A stretch of 7,510 bases of DNA from Deltaproteobacteria bacterium (lineage in GTDB: Bacteria; Desulfobacterota; Dissulfuribacteria; Dissulfuribacterales; UBA3076): NCBI GenBank assembly GCA_013138705.1, contig WTCF01000123.1:1-7510 (forward strand), given 5' to 3'. Below the pieces are notes generated by a model. The model was not told the origin of the DNA. It saw only the letters and a program-made list of their open reading frames with translations, and did not search any database. Positions 264-7,145 of this stretch are shown piece after piece (position 1 is the stretch's first letter; the number at the start of each line of letters is the position of its first letter). The translations under genes and the position numbers were made by a program.

Positions 264-734
264 TTAATTATCCTTTTGCGTTGTGGTAATGCGGACATCT
301 TTTACAAATACTTCAAAATGCAGGGTCTTGCCGGCCAGGGGATGGTTAAAGTCCAGCATCATGGCGCCTTCCCAGATGGACTTAATCAGAGCTGGTCGTC
401 TTAAACCAAATTCGTCAGGGGCCTTGACTACCTTGCCTATTTCCACTTCCCCTGTAACCCTTTCGACAGCCACCAGTGACACCTTCCCAGGATCATAGCG
501 GCCATAAGTATAGTTTGGAGGGACAAATATTAACTTTTTTTCTCCAGGAGCAAGCCCGACAATATTTTCCTCAACAGGTTTGGGAAAATTACCCTTTCCG
601 CATACAAAGGTTACCGGTCCCCCTGACTTTTCAGAGGAATCTACTACTTTTCCCGATGATAGCCTGACCTGGTATTCCATTTCCACCAGTCTTCCATGTT
701 TTACACGGAGTAGAACCTTTTTTGTTATATCCAT
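264..734 (-). CDS. slyD: SlyD-like FKBP-type peptidyl-prolyl cis-trans isomerase
   Basis: 156 residues. The order of elements is that of SlyD-type FKBPs: a first beta strand (VEMEYQVRLSSGKVVDSS, residues 17-34), a GxxxPxxEENIxGLxPGE segment (48-65), VPPNYTYGRYD (71-81) leading into the insert-in-flap chaperone domain (about 82-125), and the family signature DFNHPLAGKTLHFEV (128-142). These proteins isomerise Xaa-Pro bonds and act as chaperones in the cytoplasm; E. coli SlyD also delivers nickel. The His/Cys-rich metal-binding tail of E. coli SlyD is absent: the protein ends shortly after the last strand. There is no signal peptide. The ATG at 734-732 lies 7 nt after the stop of the DUF1178 gene, with no strong Shine-Dalgarno of its own, so translational coupling is likely. 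An N-terminal extension of about 15 residues precedes the conserved domain. Confidence 0.9.
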   Translation of the reverse strand: MDITKKVLLRVKHGRLVEMEYQVRLSSGKVVDSSEKSGGPVTFVCGKGNFPKPVEENIVGLAPGEKKLIFVPPNYTYGRYDPGKVSLVAVERVTGEVEIGKVVKAPDEFGLRRPALIKSIWEGAMMLDFNHPLAGKTLHFEVFVKDVRITTTQKDN

Positions 735-741
735 GGTTGCT

Positions 742-1164
742 TCAATGACCCTTTGTAGAGGTTTTTTCCGGTACTGGTATTTTCATAAAGGAAATTCCTT
801 CTTCCTTCAGAGTTTTTTCTTCCTCTGGTGTAGCAACACCCCTTATGTTACGGTTTTCAGTCACACCGTAATGTATCTTGAGGGCCTCTTGCGCAAATGC
901 CGTCCCTACGTCTTCTGTATTTTTTTTCACCACAGTGTAGAGCTTATTCAGCATCTCATTCAAGGCCGCTTCCGAGGTGTCGCCGTCTTTGCCGACGGAC
1001 CTGGTGCATACTGCAACTGCAGAGGGGGTTTTCTGGACATTATTACTGCCACAGACAGGACAAGTCAGCAGACCCCTCTCCTTCTGTGTCTCAAACGCCT
1101 CCCCATCCTGAAACCAGGCTTCAAAGGTATGATCTTGATCGCAACGCAAATCAAAGGCTATCAT
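742..1164 (-). CDS. DUF1178 family protein with a CxxC zinc-ribbon-like motif
   Basis: 140 residues. It starts MIAFDLRCDQDHTFEAWF, the typical DUF1178 opening, followed by a CPVCGS knuckle (Cys35, Cys38) that, together with Cys8, could bind a metal. The C-terminal signature (DVGTAFAQEALKIHYG, residues 85-100, then ATPEEEKTLKEEGI, 111-124) is also typical, and the length is normal for the family. The function is unknown; the family is cytoplasmic and common in proteobacteria. The conserved MI-x-F/Y-DL opening fixes the ATG at 1164-1162, although no clear Shine-Dalgarno precedes it. It is the first gene of a likely operon with the SlyD-like gene, 7 nt downstream, and probably the mqnE-like gene. 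It diverges from lolA across a 255-nt spacer. Confidence 0.88.
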   Translation of the reverse strand: MIAFDLRCDQDHTFEAWFQDGEAFETQKERGLLTCPVCGSNNVQKTPSAVAVCTRSVGKDGDTSEAALNEMLNKLYTVVKKNTEDVGTAFAQEALKIHYGVTENRNIRGVATPEEEKTLKEEGISFMKIPVPEKTSTKGH

Positions 1165-1419
1165 AATGTAAAATTGATAACATTTTGTGAATGGAAACGC
1201 AATCCGAACCCCTGAGCATGAAAATTAACCGCCCAAAAAAACCGGACCAAGTTCCCTGTGAATCTCGATTGAAATTCAACTGGTCCAGTATATTCTATTC
1301 CTTTCGTGCTTTCGTGATAATTCTTTTCTTTTTCGAAAGCATGTAAGGCTGGATGAACCTGAAAAAATACTTTAATATTCGGACAAGGTATTGTTTTGTA
1401 GCCGAATGGAGGCCTAATT
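1165..1419. other. Divergent intergenic region between DUF1178 gene and lolA
   Basis: 255 nt without a convincing gene, which must carry promoters for both flanking genes. Visible elements are a weak sigma-70-like pair on the plus strand (listed separately), a tandem TTTCGTG at 1302-1308 and 1310-1316, and an 8-bp inverted repeat (TGCTTTCG at 1307-1314, CGAAAGCA at 1334-1341). The minus-strand open frame across 1161-1427 has no family resemblance and no ribosome site, and I regard it as chance. Confidence 0.6.
1269..1296 (+). promoter_or_regulatory. Candidate sigma-70 promoter for lolA
   Basis: TTGAAA (1269-1274) and TATTCT (1291-1296) are separated by 16 nt. Transcription would start near 1303, about 115 nt before the lolA ATG. 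Each hexamer matches the consensus only moderately, so this is a weak call. Confidence 0.25.
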
Positions 1420-2106
1420 ATGCACAATGTGCGTTTATTTTACCTTTTGTTACTTATAGTTATGGTATTTACTTTTGTTTCGAAGTCCCTGGCAGTAGGG
1501 CTTTCAGATCGTGGAAAAGATCTTGTGTCCCTGTTACAGAAAAAATACGAAACCACCACTGATATTACCTCTAACTTCGAGCAGGAGACGTTTGCTGCCG
1601 GTTCTTCAGAGGGTCTCAAGGCAGAAGGAAAGGTCTATTTCAATCGTCCGCACCAGATGCGCTGGGAATACAGTCAACCGGAACCGCAGCTTATTGTCAC
1701 CAGTGGGAAAGAGGTATATGTGTATGAGGAGGAAGCCAACCAGGTAATGGTGCTTCCCAGGGATCAATTACTTTCTACTGAGATAAGCAAGGCCTTTTTT
1801 TTTGGAAAAGGTGACCTCAAGCGTTATTTTATTGTAGAGCATCCAGTAGAAGGCCAACCGGATGCCAGGTGGGTGCTGAAGCTTACCCCAAGGAATCCGG
1901 TACCGCAGGTATGCACCATATGGATTATCGTAGATCCTGATACCCATCTGGTAAAGGAGATGTGGCTGGAAGACCAGTTAGGTAGCAGGACACATCTTGT
2001 ATTCAGCAATGTCAAGGTTAATAAAGGCCTTTCTAACGATCTTTTCCGGTTTGTTCCACCTCCAGGTGTGGAAATTTACCGTACAGATGACCAAGATCAG
2101 GAGTAA
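1420..2106 (+). CDS. lolA: LolA-family outer-membrane lipoprotein carrier protein
   Basis: 228 residues. Residues 1-25 form a signal peptide: a short basic start (MHNVR), a hydrophobic core (LFYLLLLIVMVFTFV) and an SLA cleavage site before VG. The mature part shows LolA hallmarks: an N-terminal helix, then DITSNFEQETF (48-58), GKVYFNRPHQMRWEY (70-84), LIVTSGKEVYVY (91-102), and a C-terminal NDLFRFVPPPGVEIY (206-220). LolA binds lipoproteins released by LolCDE at the inner membrane and ferries them across the periplasm to the outer membrane. A GGAGG Shine-Dalgarno at 1408-1412, 7 nt before the ATG, supports the start. The gene diverges from the DUF1178 operon and is followed on the same strand by nadA after 135 nt. 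Its presence implies an outer membrane. A single Cys occurs in the mature part (Cys165). Confidence 0.92.
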   Translation: MHNVRLFYLLLLIVMVFTFVSKSLAVGLSDRGKDLVSLLQKKYETTTDITSNFEQETFAAGSSEGLKAEGKVYFNRPHQMRWEYSQPEPQLIVTSGKEVYVYEEEANQVMVLPRDQLLSTEISKAFFFGKGDLKRYFIVEHPVEGQPDARWVLKLTPRNPVPQVCTIWIIVDPDTHLVKEMWLEDQLGSRTHLVFSNVKVNKGLSNDLFRFVPPPGVEIYRTDDQDQE

Positions 2107-2108
2107 CC

Positions 2109-2189
2109 GTTCAGGGTTATCTTTTTTTAAATTCAGCCTCCATTCAGAACTCATGAATCAACGGCTTAGATTTTCGGTGAACCCTGAAC
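2109..2189. repeat. Inverted repeat between lolA and nadA
   Basis: GTTCAGGGTT (2109-2118) is the exact reverse complement of AACCCTGAAC at 2180-2189, and of a second copy at 2187-2196 inside the tandem array. A transcript could form a 10-bp stem with a loop of about 60 nt. It starts 3 nt after the lolA stop codon. Confidence 0.6.
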
Positions 2190-2220
2190 CCTGAACCCTT
2201 GAACCCTTGAACCTTTGAAC
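2178..2220 (+). repeat. Short tandem repeat array (TGAACCC / TGAACCCT units) upstream of nadA
   Basis: Five units and a partial sixth run head to tail: TGAACCC at 2178 and 2185, TGAACCCT at 2192 and 2200, TGAACCTT at 2208, then TGAAC at 2216. The unit length changes from 7 to 8 bp part-way. The array ends 21 nt before the nadA ATG and could change length by slippage. Similar GAACCCT/GAACCTT strings occur between genes in many bacterial genomes; no function is established. Confidence 0.85.
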
Positions 2221-2241
2221 GCCTATAATCAGGAGAACAAA

Positions 2242-3159
2242 ATGTCCAATGAAAGTTTAGCTGGAGAAATCCGTGCATTGGCACAGGAGAAAAACGCCAT
2301 CATTCTTGCTCACAATTACCAGGTGCCGGAGGTCCAGGATATTGCGGACCTTACTGGGGATTCTCTGGCCCTGAGTATCCAGGCCTCAGAGACCGAAGCC
2401 GGTATCATAATATTTTGCGGAGTCCGTTTTATGGCTGAGACCGCGGCCATTGTTTGTCCGGATAAAAAAGTGATACTGCCTGTAAAAGAGGCAGGCTGTG
2501 GTATGGCGGATATGCTGAACGCCGCGGAGCTGATGGTTGAGAAAGCAAAGTATCCGGGCGTGCCTGTGGTCACATATGTGAATTCTACAGCCGAAGTAAA
2601 GGCAGAAAGCGACATCTGCTGTACCTCAGCCAATGCGGTGCAGGTCGTTAAATCCTTAAAGACCCCTGAGGTCCTTATGACCCCGGACAAGAATCTGGCA
2701 ATGTGGGTACAGAGACATACAGATCAAAAAGTCCATTACTGGCTTGGTTACTGTCCAATTCACGATGATCTCACAGTTGCCCAAGTCAAGGAGGCAAAAG
2801 CCGCACACCCCGAGGCTCTGCTTATGGCCCATCCCGAGTGCCCTCCAGAGGTGCTGGACATGGCGGACGCGGTAAGAAGCACCAGCGGCATGCTGACCTT
2901 TGCAGCAGAATCCAAGGCAAAGGAATTCATTGTTGCCACAGAGATAGGGCTTTTACATACGCTGAAGAAGCAAGACCCAGGGAAGAAATTTTACGCTGCT
3001 TCTCCTGAGATGGTCTGCATAGACATGAAAAAAACAGGACTGAAGCAGGTGTTGCAGGCCCTTCAAACAGAAGGGCCAGTGATTGTTGTGCCCGAACCGA
3101 TTCGTTTAAAGGCCCTCAAGGCTGTTGAACGTATGATGGCCGTGCCCAGGGATTTATAG
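2242..3159 (+). CDS. nadA: Quinolinate synthase NadA
   Basis: 305 residues. NadA condenses iminoaspartate with dihydroxyacetone phosphate to quinolinate, the second step of de novo NAD synthesis, using an oxygen-sensitive [4Fe-4S] cluster in the cytoplasm. Visible motifs are AIILAHNYQVPEVQDIAD (19-36, substrate-binding His/Tyr), GDSLALSIQAS (39-49), FCGVRFMAETA (58-68), EAGCGMADM (84-91; Cys86), YVNSTAEVKAESDICCTSAN (112-131), GYCPIHDD (169-176; Cys171), AHPECPPEV (196-204), STSGML and PEMVCIDMKK (255-264; Cys259). Cys86, Cys171 and Cys259 are the three expected cluster ligands. I chose ATG 2242 because AGGAG at 2231-2235 lies 6 nt upstream; an in-frame TTG at 2215 would start inside the tandem repeat. 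No nadB or nadC is in the window. Confidence 0.97.
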   Translation: MSNESLAGEIRALAQEKNAIILAHNYQVPEVQDIADLTGDSLALSIQASETEAGIIIFCGVRFMAETAAIVCPDKKVILPVKEAGCGMADMLNAAELMVEKAKYPGVPVVTYVNSTAEVKAESDICCTSANAVQVVKSLKTPEVLMTPDKNLAMWVQRHTDQKVHYWLGYCPIHDDLTVAQVKEAKAAHPEALLMAHPECPPEVLDMADAVRSTSGMLTFAAESKAKEFIVATEIGLLHTLKKQDPGKKFYAASPEMVCIDMKKTGLKQVLQALQTEGPVIVVPEPIRLKALKAVERMMAVPRDL

Positions 3160-3698: not shown

Positions 3699-3724
3699 TT
3701 GTATAAATTGGCAACGTCCCCTAT
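3699..3724 (+). repeat. 26-bp dispersed repeat, left copy
   Basis: The sequence begins TTGTATAAATTGG and ends CGTCCCCTAT. It is identical, base for base, to the reverse complement of 6298-6323. Flanking bases differ on both sides. The two copies face inward and enclose about 2.6 kb. Confidence 0.9.
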
Positions 3725-3853: not shown

Positions 3854-5548
3854 CTACTTAATGATGCGGACGCTATCACAACCCCAGAATTTCTCCCCAC
3901 TGAGTGTCTTGCCGCTCAGGCAGCCCTCCGTATCGTCAAGCTTTAAGTTCACATCCTGTGTCTCAAAGTGGAACACTACGTCCAGTAGCCCATCGCCGTT
4001 CACATCTTCGAGGGATTCTCCAATGGGAAGCGGACATATATTGGCAAATACCACGGTACCTGGGTCAATGGCAGTCGCATCGAAACCCGGGTCGCTCAGA
4101 ACGGCTACAGGAATCTTGCCTTTACTCTTAAGGTTGATGGAATTAGGGAAACTACTAGGCTTAATATCCACGTCTACCTCAATTTCGTAAAACGGGTCTT
4201 CTGCTGTTATTATCCTATCAATGAAGTGCTGTTTGGCACTCATAAATGCCTTTATCTGAGCCGGAGTAGCAGTACCTGCTTTTTTCATTGGCCTGATCCA
4301 GTTTCTGAATTCCAGAAATCTCTCTGGAAACACCTCCCGTTTCATATGAAGTGTAGTTGCATCACCAGTAGGTTTCCTAATAAACCCATACGTGTAATTT
4401 TCCATAGTCAGTTTTGCTGTGCTGGTCCCTTCTGGTATATCTAGCTCATAATCACCTCTAGTTACCGCCTTGGTAATATAATCAAATGCCTCCCTGTGAC
4501 CGTTTGAAGGATGAGAGGATATGACGTAGTAAGTATCATCACTTTGCGGTATTTCGTCTTCCCAAAGGAGATTAAATGCCTCCTGACATACCCGGAATGT
4601 AGCTACTCTGCAGCAACATAAGGGCTCGGGTTCTCGTACTTTAGCCAGCGTTATCTCTTCACTGTCTATCAAGATTGGCGGCAGTTCTACCAAAGCTTTA
4701 AGCGCGCTGAGTTCTATCCATCTGGCAAACCCGGGATGCGGTGCCAGCGCCTCACCATTGTACATATAAGAAAGCCCTGTAAGTTGCATAGGAATATACA
4801 TGTCGGTGAAGAAGCCTTCAGAAATCATCAGGGGAATTACTATTACTTCTGCCTCTGAAGCGGCCTCCTTCACTACATCCCCTAAGTATGGCTCCCTGCT
4901 TGGAAATACATATGAATGCCTTACATCCTTTACCCCAAGCTCCCATTTCATGCGGGCAGCCAGTGACTCCATATTCTCACTCCATTTGGCCAAATTTTCT
5001 CCAGCAGCCCCATGACCGGTAATTACCACAATCTCTTCACTGGGATTTGTGCTTAACTCTCTTGCCTTATCGCAGAGGACGTGGGCAATTATAGGATGAT
5101 CATCCAACGCACTGGTTAAAATGAACTCCGCATCACTTTCAATCGGAAATAGCCCTTCTTCGGCTAATGCTTCTTCATCAACTACTTCAGTGTCGTATGG
5201 AAGCCCCAGGATATACTTTATTTCCTCGATATGGCTACTATGAGAAGAAATAAAGCAAACAACGGCAACAATAATTTCATCTACACCTTGAGCTTCTAAT
5301 CTATCCACGGCATCCTGAACCCCTTCATCGGGGACAAACTCCAAAAAGGCCAATTCTACGGGATAGGCTAAACTTACCTGCGCCACTGTATCCCTAACAG
5401 GTTGATTCCAGGCTTCACTTGGGCTTCCATGGGCAATAACCAAGACACCAGGATTCTGTGCCCAGCAAGCAACGCTAAACCCAGCTAATAGCCATAATGA
5501 TACAAATAAACCTAGAAAAACCCTTTTTGAGCTACTTACCTTTTTCAT
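3854..5548 (-). CDS. Secreted multidomain protein: two CbiX-like chelatase halves, FmdE-like region, C-terminal Ca-loop domain
   Basis: 564 residues from ATG 5548, which has AGGAG at 5563-5559, 10 nt upstream; a longer frame opening at 5626 lacks a ribosome site and would bury the signal peptide. Residues 1-30 are a signal peptide (MKKVSSSKR, hydrophobic core, CWA before Q). Residues 34-115 are a class II chelatase (CbiX/SirB) half: VLVIAHGSP (His40) and CFISSHSSHIEEIKYILG (His103, His106). Residues 172-280 look like a second half with VVITGHGAAGE (His179) and PLMISEGFFTDMYIP, where the second histidine is missing. Then come Cys311-Cys313 in a row and Cys321, an FmdE-like segment (about 317-418, FRVCQEAFNLLW, VISSHPSNGHREAFDYIT), and a C-terminal domain (about 459-564) opening VDVDIKPSSFPNSINL with a DVNGDGLLD loop (515-523). 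It probably handles tetrapyrrole or metal outside the cytoplasm. The chelatase assignment is firm at fold level; the FmdE-like one is tentative and the substrate unknown. Confidence 0.75.
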   Translation of the reverse strand: MKKVSSSKRVFLGLFVSLWLLAGFSVACWAQNPGVLVIAHGSPSEAWNQPVRDTVAQVSLAYPVELAFLEFVPDEGVQDAVDRLEAQGVDEIIVAVVCFISSHSSHIEEIKYILGLPYDTEVVDEEALAEEGLFPIESDAEFILTSALDDHPIIAHVLCDKARELSTNPSEEIVVITGHGAAGENLAKWSENMESLAARMKWELGVKDVRHSYVFPSREPYLGDVVKEAASEAEVIVIPLMISEGFFTDMYIPMQLTGLSYMYNGEALAPHPGFARWIELSALKALVELPPILIDSEEITLAKVREPEPLCCCRVATFRVCQEAFNLLWEDEIPQSDDTYYVISSHPSNGHREAFDYITKAVTRGDYELDIPEGTSTAKLTMENYTYGFIRKPTGDATTLHMKREVFPERFLEFRNWIRPMKKAGTATPAQIKAFMSAKQHFIDRIITAEDPFYEIEVDVDIKPSSFPNSINLKSKGKIPVAVLSDPGFDATAIDPGTVVFANICPLPIGESLEDVNGDGLLDVVFHFETQDVNLKLDDTEGCLSGKTLSGEKFWGCDSVRIIK

Positions 5549-5563: not shown

Positions 5564-5644
5564 TTCATAATATAAGGTGCTTTTTACAAATGATAGCGAG
5601 TTCACAATTTTGGGGTTTTCGCCCATTCGTCCCCACAGCCTTTT

Positions 5645-6272: not shown

Positions 6273-6307
6273 ATAGGGGACGCTGTTTCTGAATGTAATA
6301 GGGGACG
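6273..6307 (+). repeat. Two ATAGGGGACG repeats, 25 bp apart
   Basis: ATAGGGGACG occurs at 6273-6282 and 6298-6307. The second copy begins the right 26-bp repeat. The same core forms the 17-bp direct repeats at 3714-3748 on the opposite strand, so both ends of the enclosed segment carry two cores each. Confidence 0.8.
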
Positions 6308-6323
6308 TTGCCAATTTATACAA
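6298..6323 (-). repeat. 26-bp dispersed repeat, right copy (inverted)
   Basis: The exact reverse complement of 3699-3724. The TTGTATAAATTGG end faces outward (right), mirroring the left copy, so the pair is arranged like terminal inverted repeats around the chelatase-like gene and its upstream region. The right copy lies about 180 nt past the end of vapC. Confidence 0.9.
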
Positions 6324-6504: not shown

Positions 6505-6895
6505 TCAGGGACGCTTGACGCGGCAGTTGGAAAGGCCCTTGGCCCTGCGGATAAATTTGTTGTCAAAGGTCAGAAAAGAGGAATGTTGCTGGCTGGTTGC
6601 CAGATGGAGGGCATCGGCGAAATCAAGGCCGGATTCATGCCATTGAATTGCCTGATAAACAAGATCAGGGTTATTGACATGTACATTTGGCAGACCCAGG
6701 AGTCTTGTTAATGACATACGGATTTCCGTTGGATCGAACCGATAGGCAAATCGCAAAACCCACTCTGTTTCCATGAGCACTGTGTTCGGGATAAAAACAT
6801 CGCGGCTGCTGAAATTTTTTTTTGGCCTTTTGAAATTGCGCCTCATCGTCGCGGGTGAGCAAACGGACAATGATATTGGTGTCAACCGCAATCAC
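6505..6895 (-). pseudogene. vapC: VapC-type PIN-domain toxin, split by a frameshift at an A9 run
   Basis: The two halves of a PIN ribonuclease lie in different frames. The first starts at GTG 6895 (read as MIAVDTNIIVRLLTRDDEAQFQKAKKK), with the first catalytic Asp in AVDTN. The second continues SSRDVFIPNTVLMETEWVLRF (Glu of the METEW motif), then GLPNVHVNNPDLVYQAIQWHESGLDFADALHLA (the Asp-rich centre) and FLTFDNKFIRRA, to TGA at 6505. The frame changes at nine consecutive A on the coding strand (6823-6815); removing one base joins them into a normal protein of about 130 residues with all PIN acidic residues. GGAG at 6906-6903, 7 nt upstream, supports the GTG start. VapC toxins cut tRNA or rRNA and are neutralised by VapB, encoded 22 nt upstream. 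The split may be a true mutation, transcript slippage or a sequencing error, so the gene may still be active. Confidence 0.85.
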
Positions 6896-6917: not shown

Positions 6918-7145
6918 CTAGATGGCTTTCTCCATATCCTCCAGACTTTTTGGTTTGCCGTGATATTTCAGGCAGGAAGCCACCTCGTCAAGCGTGGTTT
7001 CCTGAAAAGGGGTTTCAGGCTTGAGCAATATCCCGTCGCCTGCATCAATGGCCATGAGTTTCTGCCCCGGCTCCCAGTGATGGGCGGTCCGTAAAGGCTT
7101 GGGAATAATAACCTGACCTTTGCTTGATAATTTTGTGGTTTGCAT
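6918..7145 (-). CDS. vapB: VapB antitoxin, SpoVT/AbrB-type DNA-binding protein
   Basis: 75 residues. The N-terminal part, MQTTKLSSKGQVIIPKPLRTAHHWEPGQKLMAID, is a typical SpoVT/AbrB swapped-hairpin DNA-binding domain (SSKGQVxIPKxLR, residues 7-19), followed by GDGILLKP. The C-terminal tail (about 46-75, TTLDEVASCLKYHGKPKSLEDMEKAI) is the part that usually wraps and inhibits the PIN toxin. Such antitoxins bind their own promoter, better in complex with the toxin. AAGGAT at 7157-7152 lies 6 nt before the ATG and supports the start. The stop lies 22 nt before the vapC GTG, so the two form one transcription unit. The gene appears intact even though its toxin is frameshifted. Confidence 0.92.
   Translation of the reverse strand: MQTTKLSSKGQVIIPKPLRTAHHWEPGQKLMAIDAGDGILLKPETPFQETTLDEVASCLKYHGKPKSLEDMEKAI

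Follow-up and report, generated by a model that had tools for sequence, protein, structure and literature searches.

The 7,510-nucleotide stretch of DNA analysed here (hereafter the window; contig WTCF01000123.1 of a Deltaproteobacteria bacterium) carries at 3854..5548, on its minus strand, a gene for an exported 564-residue protein made of two CbiX-type chelatase lobes, an FmdE-like domain and a C-terminal beta module, as seen from the open frame, Pfam matches and a structure model. Our tentative proposal, on which we would not insist, is that this protein, once exported, acts as a de-chelatase that releases iron from tetrapyrroles so that FeoB can take up Fe(II). The relatives linked to Feo genes probably belong to metal, mainly iron, acquisition. 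Computation finds an export signal, the chelatase fold, a near-invariant metal triad and a recurrent domain order, and it places archaeal and bacterial relatives in Feo gene context. An earlier note, made from the letters of this DNA alone, had left the function open-ended (tetrapyrrole binding or metallation, or metal sensing); the gene neighbourhoods of the relatives now suggest iron acquisition.

A protein search gave 42 matches, 30 of which (P0001-P0030) align along the core. A genome scan gave 40 loci, mostly from records of anaerobic methanotrophic archaea (ANME-1, ANME-2 and ANME-3), of the Ethanoperedens type, or of other Methanosarcinales or Methanothrix; the remaining ones belong to Desulfotruncus, Syntrophaceticus, Ammonifex, Moorella, Evansella, one Armatimonadetes, one other Firmicutes and one Deltaproteobacteria record. 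FeoB clusters are present in 13 of the 40. In the 35 loci of this unbiased scan that have both domains (full-core loci), FeoB lies within 10 kb in 11, against 0.27 expected from the 38 FeoB genes (at least 150 bits) in 55.2 Mb of 20 of the locus genomes; where at least 10 kb of flank is available, the count is 10 of 20. The tail value of 1e-14 for this association is not a probability, because the loci are related. FeoB is found within this distance in archaea (L009, L010, L022, L024, L026, L028, L038), Bacillota (L031, L036, L037) and Armatimonadota (L035), and the link is also seen in two genomes (L088, L089; regions picked later) from the phylum of the genome that carries L001, a locus with a close copy of the window gene. 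The FeoB loci often hold FeoA, a DtxR-type regulator or DUF2325 as well. For example, the gene order is DtxR-FeoA-FeoB-DUF2325-NifX-core in L036 and FeoB-core-DUF2325-FecB-FecCD-ABC in L035.

Pfam matches of representatives identify the adjoining clusters as FeoB, FeoA (single or triple), DtxR-type repressor, FeoC-like protein, DUF2325 and DUF3793, and further as flavodoxin, NifX-like protein, FecCD, periplasmic binding proteins and ZinT. ZinT-like proteins adjoin the core in some archaea (L022:7367-8476, Pfam ZinT 2.4e-14; L033, L038, L099). In 12 of the 40 loci, all archaeal, the core is followed by a short protein weakly similar to HYDIN/ASH (for example, L010:11637-12266; L039 has it without a core frame).

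This context bears on two other explanations. First, the protein might salvage or remodel tetrapyrroles (corrinoid, F430, or metal exchange of the kind proposed for FetB) instead of supplying iron. We consider this improbable, since the Feo, FeoC-like and DtxR-type genes belong to iron-specific families and are found repeatedly in different lineages. Moreover, no cobalamin-synthesis gene was noticed beside the inspected loci, whose neighbours were scanned in part, and the window has none next to the gene, as the earlier note had remarked. Second, DtxR-type regulators stand near 11 of 46 full-core loci, which would suit an extracytoplasmic metal sensor or regulator acting via DtxR-type or FeoC-like partners. 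This appears very improbable: DtxR-type regulators themselves sense cytoplasmic iron, and no transmembrane signalling partner was found in the scanned neighbourhoods.

The export of the protein is apparent from its N-terminus. The minus-strand frame, to which all parts of the protein given below belong, runs unbroken from an ATG at 5548 to the stop at 3854 (an alternative in-frame ATG upstream, at 5626, would give a product of 590 residues). Residues 1-30 (5459..5548) are signal-like, with a hydrophobic helix at 6-29 of the structure model that is partly of low confidence. Of the 46 full-core proteins, 41 have a strongly hydrophobic segment at the N-terminus, whereas none of 39 cytoplasmic control neighbours (FeoA3, DtxR, DUF3793) does; the five full-core proteins lacking it include contig-truncated or partial frames. 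The signal-like N-termini, surface modules and Feo context of the relatives do not fit a cytoplasmic enzyme of the siroheme or cobalamin pathway. An ordinary biosynthetic chelatase, inserting cobalt, iron or nickel and exported only incidentally, would explain the CbiX/SirB fold and the complete triad, but it is hardly credible beside the hydrophobic N-termini, the dockerin or SLH fusions and the lack of any noticed tetrapyrrole-synthesis context. In addition, a further CbiX or CbiK frame exists in 7 of 9 genomes (none in G007 and G058; HemH was not searched for), and therefore tetrapyrrole synthesis need not use the exported protein.

The chelatase part shows the features of class II chelatases (SirB/CbiX-L), namely two alpha/beta lobes with CbiX homology and a His/Glu/His triad in the N-terminal lobe. 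Pfam CbiX matches the window protein in two stretches (9.7e-16), and the structural match to SirB spans residues 29-290. The first lobe, residues 33-165 (5054..5452), has the best CbiX stretch (40-159) and bears the triad; the second, residues 170-288 (4685..5041), is recognized by structure match and by NCBIfam PRK02395 stretches at 169-260. The metal ligands of SirB are reported to be His10, Glu43 and His76, and its R134H variant can use His base catalysis (PMC11301274). The equivalents in the window protein, assigned by motif and alignment offset and not by residue-by-residue superposition of coordinates, are H40 (5429..5431), E70 (5339..5341, aligned through its FLE motif) and H106 (5231..5233). 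H179 (5012..5014), the second-lobe histidine of GHG, aligns as the putative equivalent of SirB Arg134 and of the second His9 of CfbA. Among 105 distinct chelatase-domain rows, in which each repeat inside one protein counts as a row, H40 is kept in 99, E70 in 94 (with D in 6), H106 in 101 and H179 in 99. Judged from sequence, the predicted active site looks complete rather than decayed, because the triad matches the SirB ligands and H179 stands at the place of Arg134, where R134H can do His base catalysis. The second lobe retains H179 and has T248, with no second conserved histidine. The whole triad lies in the N-terminal lobe, which rules out a CbiK/CbiKP-type histidine pair in the C-terminal lobe, and the window protein gives no PF06180 match at an E-value cutoff of 1. 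Class I identity (HmuS/CobN) is likewise ruled out, as Pfam and NCBIfam scans give CbiX-type and ferrochelatase families only.

The FmdE-like domain, residues 300-448 (4205..4651), is recognized by structure and through the relatives. With the predicted structure, which has the alpha+beta core fold of FmdE PF02663, Foldseek matches 2glz_B (E 2.0e-3, probability 1.00, target TM 0.65), only at rank 49 because chelatases fill the match list. The Pfam scan finds no PF02663 in the window protein by sequence (0 families); the family is matched in 16 of the 30 aligned relatives. The metal loop of FmdE is known as FHGHxC, and FmdE structures are reported to bind Zn/Ni at a His-His-Cys-Cys site (PMC2954224). 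Many archaeal relatives have HGHxCPC at this loop. The window clade reads PEPLCCC, with the cysteines kept and the histidines lost, and so lacks the HGHxC motif. Conservation of the CCC at residues 311-313 (4610..4618) is limited to CxC: of 96 distinct rows, 81 have C311 and 86 have C313. PEPLCCC aligns with the archaeal HGHxCPC; therefore the tri-cysteine, which the earlier note took for a motif apart, is the FmdE metal loop.

These two domains together bear on the main rival explanation, in which the chelatase fold is non-catalytic and acts as a chaperone for metal or heme: it would keep Fe(II), or an entire metal tetrapyrrole, bound outside the cell and deliver it to FeoB or a FecBCD-type importer. 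The Feo and FecBCD context fits such a carrier equally. The Zn/Ni binding of FmdE structures is in its favor, as is the report that most PF02663 genes adjoin metal-ion transporter genes (PMC2954224). So are the chelatase-free FmdE-like proteins found in some archaeal loci directly behind FeoB and a small conserved protein (L022:15749-16591, L107:1820-3013, L076-L078). The exported class II protein CbiKP of Desulfovibrio vulgaris, which binds heme, is a further point for it. Against a pure carrier stands the retention, in 94-101 of the 105 rows, of a full H-E-H triad and H179, for which it would have no use. We regard the carrier as possible, if rather doubtful.

In the de-chelatase proposal, the exported SirB-like class II chelatase and its FmdE-like metal-binding domain would be the extracytoplasmic front end of a ferrous-iron uptake locus. 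The protein would bind iron-bearing tetrapyrroles (heme, siroheme or products of their breakdown) and take out the Fe(II) at H40/E70/H106, H179 serving as the acid-base partner. The freed Fe(II) may then be handed to or through the FmdE-like cysteine site and imported by FeoB. The window copy presumably shares the role of its Feo-linked relatives. Several points weigh against this proposal. The tetrapyrrole substrate, the demetallating direction and the metal hand-over are steps that we only infer. A profile of the FmdE-like region gave no FmdE structure by sequence, and the HGH of the FmdE metal site is lost in the window clade. The expected FeoB count treats the loci as independent although they are related. 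No Feo gene is present in the window (7.5 kb) or in L001 (3.5 kb). FeoB is absent from the available flank of 24 of the 35 loci, 14 of which have less than 10 kb of it; it is absent despite at least 10 kb in L003, L004, L006, L007, L011 (which has FeoA), L013, L019, L021, L023 and L032. No Feo gene lies near Bacillota chelatase-only relatives such as L040 and L105. Finally, L091 has a ZnuA/ABC-3 type transporter upstream instead of FeoB, and ZinT-like proteins lie near several cores; therefore iron need not be the sole metal.

Proteins with this domain order, preceded by a signal-like N-terminus, are found in ANME and related archaea, in Bacillota and Armatimonadota and in a few further bacteria; their surface modules are interchangeable. 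In the window protein the module is a beta-sandwich, residues 452-564 (3857..4195, from the fold model; predicted local distance difference test score 92.4 when modelled alone). It is common to 10 unrelated proteins in the alignment, and dockerin, SLH or other modules replace it in relatives. The DxNxDGxxD loop belongs to this generic appended module, and the earlier note's reading of the calcium-loop domain as part of the system is not supported. In other respects that note fared better. The motifs it listed do lie in one 564-residue frame, on the minus strand (it gave none): HGS at 40-42, SSHSSHIEE at 101-109, GHG at 178-180, CCC at 311-313 and DVNGDGLLD at 515-523. Its exported protein, tandem chelatase halves and FmdE-like region are all borne out. 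It had staked its interpretation on a class II chelatase structure in residues 30-300 and on a conserved domain order in homologues; the structure match and the tabulated order therefore leave both standing, and the interpretation as a whole is partly supported.

The distribution of the family is patchy. In whole-genome draws scored by a match to the core profile (422 positions) at 1e-20, matches were found in 8 of 395 genomes from the phylum of L001's genome (3 full length), in 39 of 392 from the phylum of G010 and in 9 of 398 from the phylum of Ammonifex (2 full length). In the phylum of G010, 18 span position 1 to at least 415 of 422, and many of the others are FmdE-only or chelatase-only. 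Some proteins hold two or three tandem chelatase-FmdE cores (L003:8667-13202, L004:7744-12300, L011:9782-12988, L023:9902-13447). Methanothrix-type relatives (L027, L029, L033, L099) carry two chelatase-lobe pairs in a frame that lacks an FmdE-like domain.

Horizontal movement explains the history of the window gene most simply. The window and L001 share 90.4% DNA identity over 3855-5522, that is, over the gene alone, and nothing aligns outside it at 1e-5 (L001 is a short contig, 3.5 kb, and its binning may be wrong). The window chelatase and its G001 counterpart (L001) are 88% identical; the window NadA is 70% identical to that of G121, 57% to G001 and 48% to G058. In a quick unrooted tree the window chelatase groups with metagenome proteins P0001-P0007 (support 96), next to an archaeal clade (Shimodaira-Hasegawa-like approximate likelihood ratio test 86, not starred), and the G121 protein falls with Bacillota (100, long branch). 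A perfect 26-bp inverted repeat flanks the gene (3699..3724, plus strand, and 6298..6323, minus strand) and may mark a mobile or insertion boundary. Beyond the right repeat, a PIN-domain and a MazE/AbrB-type gene (6505-6891 and 6918-7145, minus strand; Pfam 1.1e-9 and 1.8e-8) are likely a toxin-antitoxin module. The neighbours at 264-3159 are ordinary (FKBP-type isomerase, DUF1178, LolA, NadA).

Multiheme cytochromes and Fe-S enzymes give ANME archaea and their syntrophic neighbours a high demand for iron, in sulfidic sediments that are poor in free iron. Iron acquisition by these archaea is described as little known (PMC8351635). If the proposal is true, a surface-exposed chelatase in ANME Feo loci would give a concrete, testable iron route, anaerobic heme-iron extraction would extend past Bacteroidota and past class I chelatases, and secreted proteins annotated as sirohydrochlorin ferrochelatase or hypothetical would gain a context. 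More speculatively, and we think unlikely as a whole, there could be a cross-domain anaerobic iron-scavenging system, in which a modular CbiX-CbiX-FmdE protein, displayed on the surface with a dockerin, SLH or other anchor, strips the metal from tetrapyrroles outside the cell and supplies FeoB with Fe(II). It would be a class II counterpart of class I HmuS, carried between archaea and bacteria of methane-oxidising, syntrophic communities.

Literature searches found no description of this domain combination or its iron context, in agreement with the earlier note, which knew of no such system. The main text of an ANME comparative genomics paper lists many dockerin proteins and has no match for chelatase or Feo. 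Yet there are known class II chelatases that are exported and have a link to heme or iron. One is CbiKP, a heme-binding periplasmic protein of Desulfovibrio vulgaris, whose chain (2xvz) is without an FmdE-like domain or surface modules. Another is FetB of Porphyromonas gingivalis, which we take to be the same protein as IhtB; it matches the window protein in fold, but it is a single chelatase of a Bacteroidota heme system, with a 261-residue chain lacking the FmdE-like domain. FetB is reported to be a class II chelatase able to act at the cell surface (PMC13402209). CbiK of Salmonella has its histidine pair in the C-terminal lobe (PMC7689651), unlike the window protein. The cytoplasmic sirohydrochlorin chelatases SirB and CbiX(L) share the two-lobed fold and the N-terminal-lobe triad; the window protein differs in being exported, in the added FmdE-like domain and in a putative second-lobe His for Arg, and its family has Feo context instead of siroheme or cobalamin genes. 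DR2241 of Deinococcus (2jh3) has different added domains. The FmdE family PF02663 shares the second domain, but the window protein is exported, fused to a chelatase, without the HGH of the metal site and below Pfam detection. In Bacteroides, heme iron is freed in the periplasm and FeoAB is needed (PMC6460266), and HmuS, a class I enzyme, is reported to be a de-chelatase (PMC12583661). The likeness to the Bacteroidota HmuS and BtuS with FeoAB is in working only, that is, anaerobic extracytoplasmic iron removal followed by FeoB import; they are CobN-like, membrane bound, 1469 residues long and without sequence kinship to the window protein. The component parts are known already; what appears new is their combination and its iron context.
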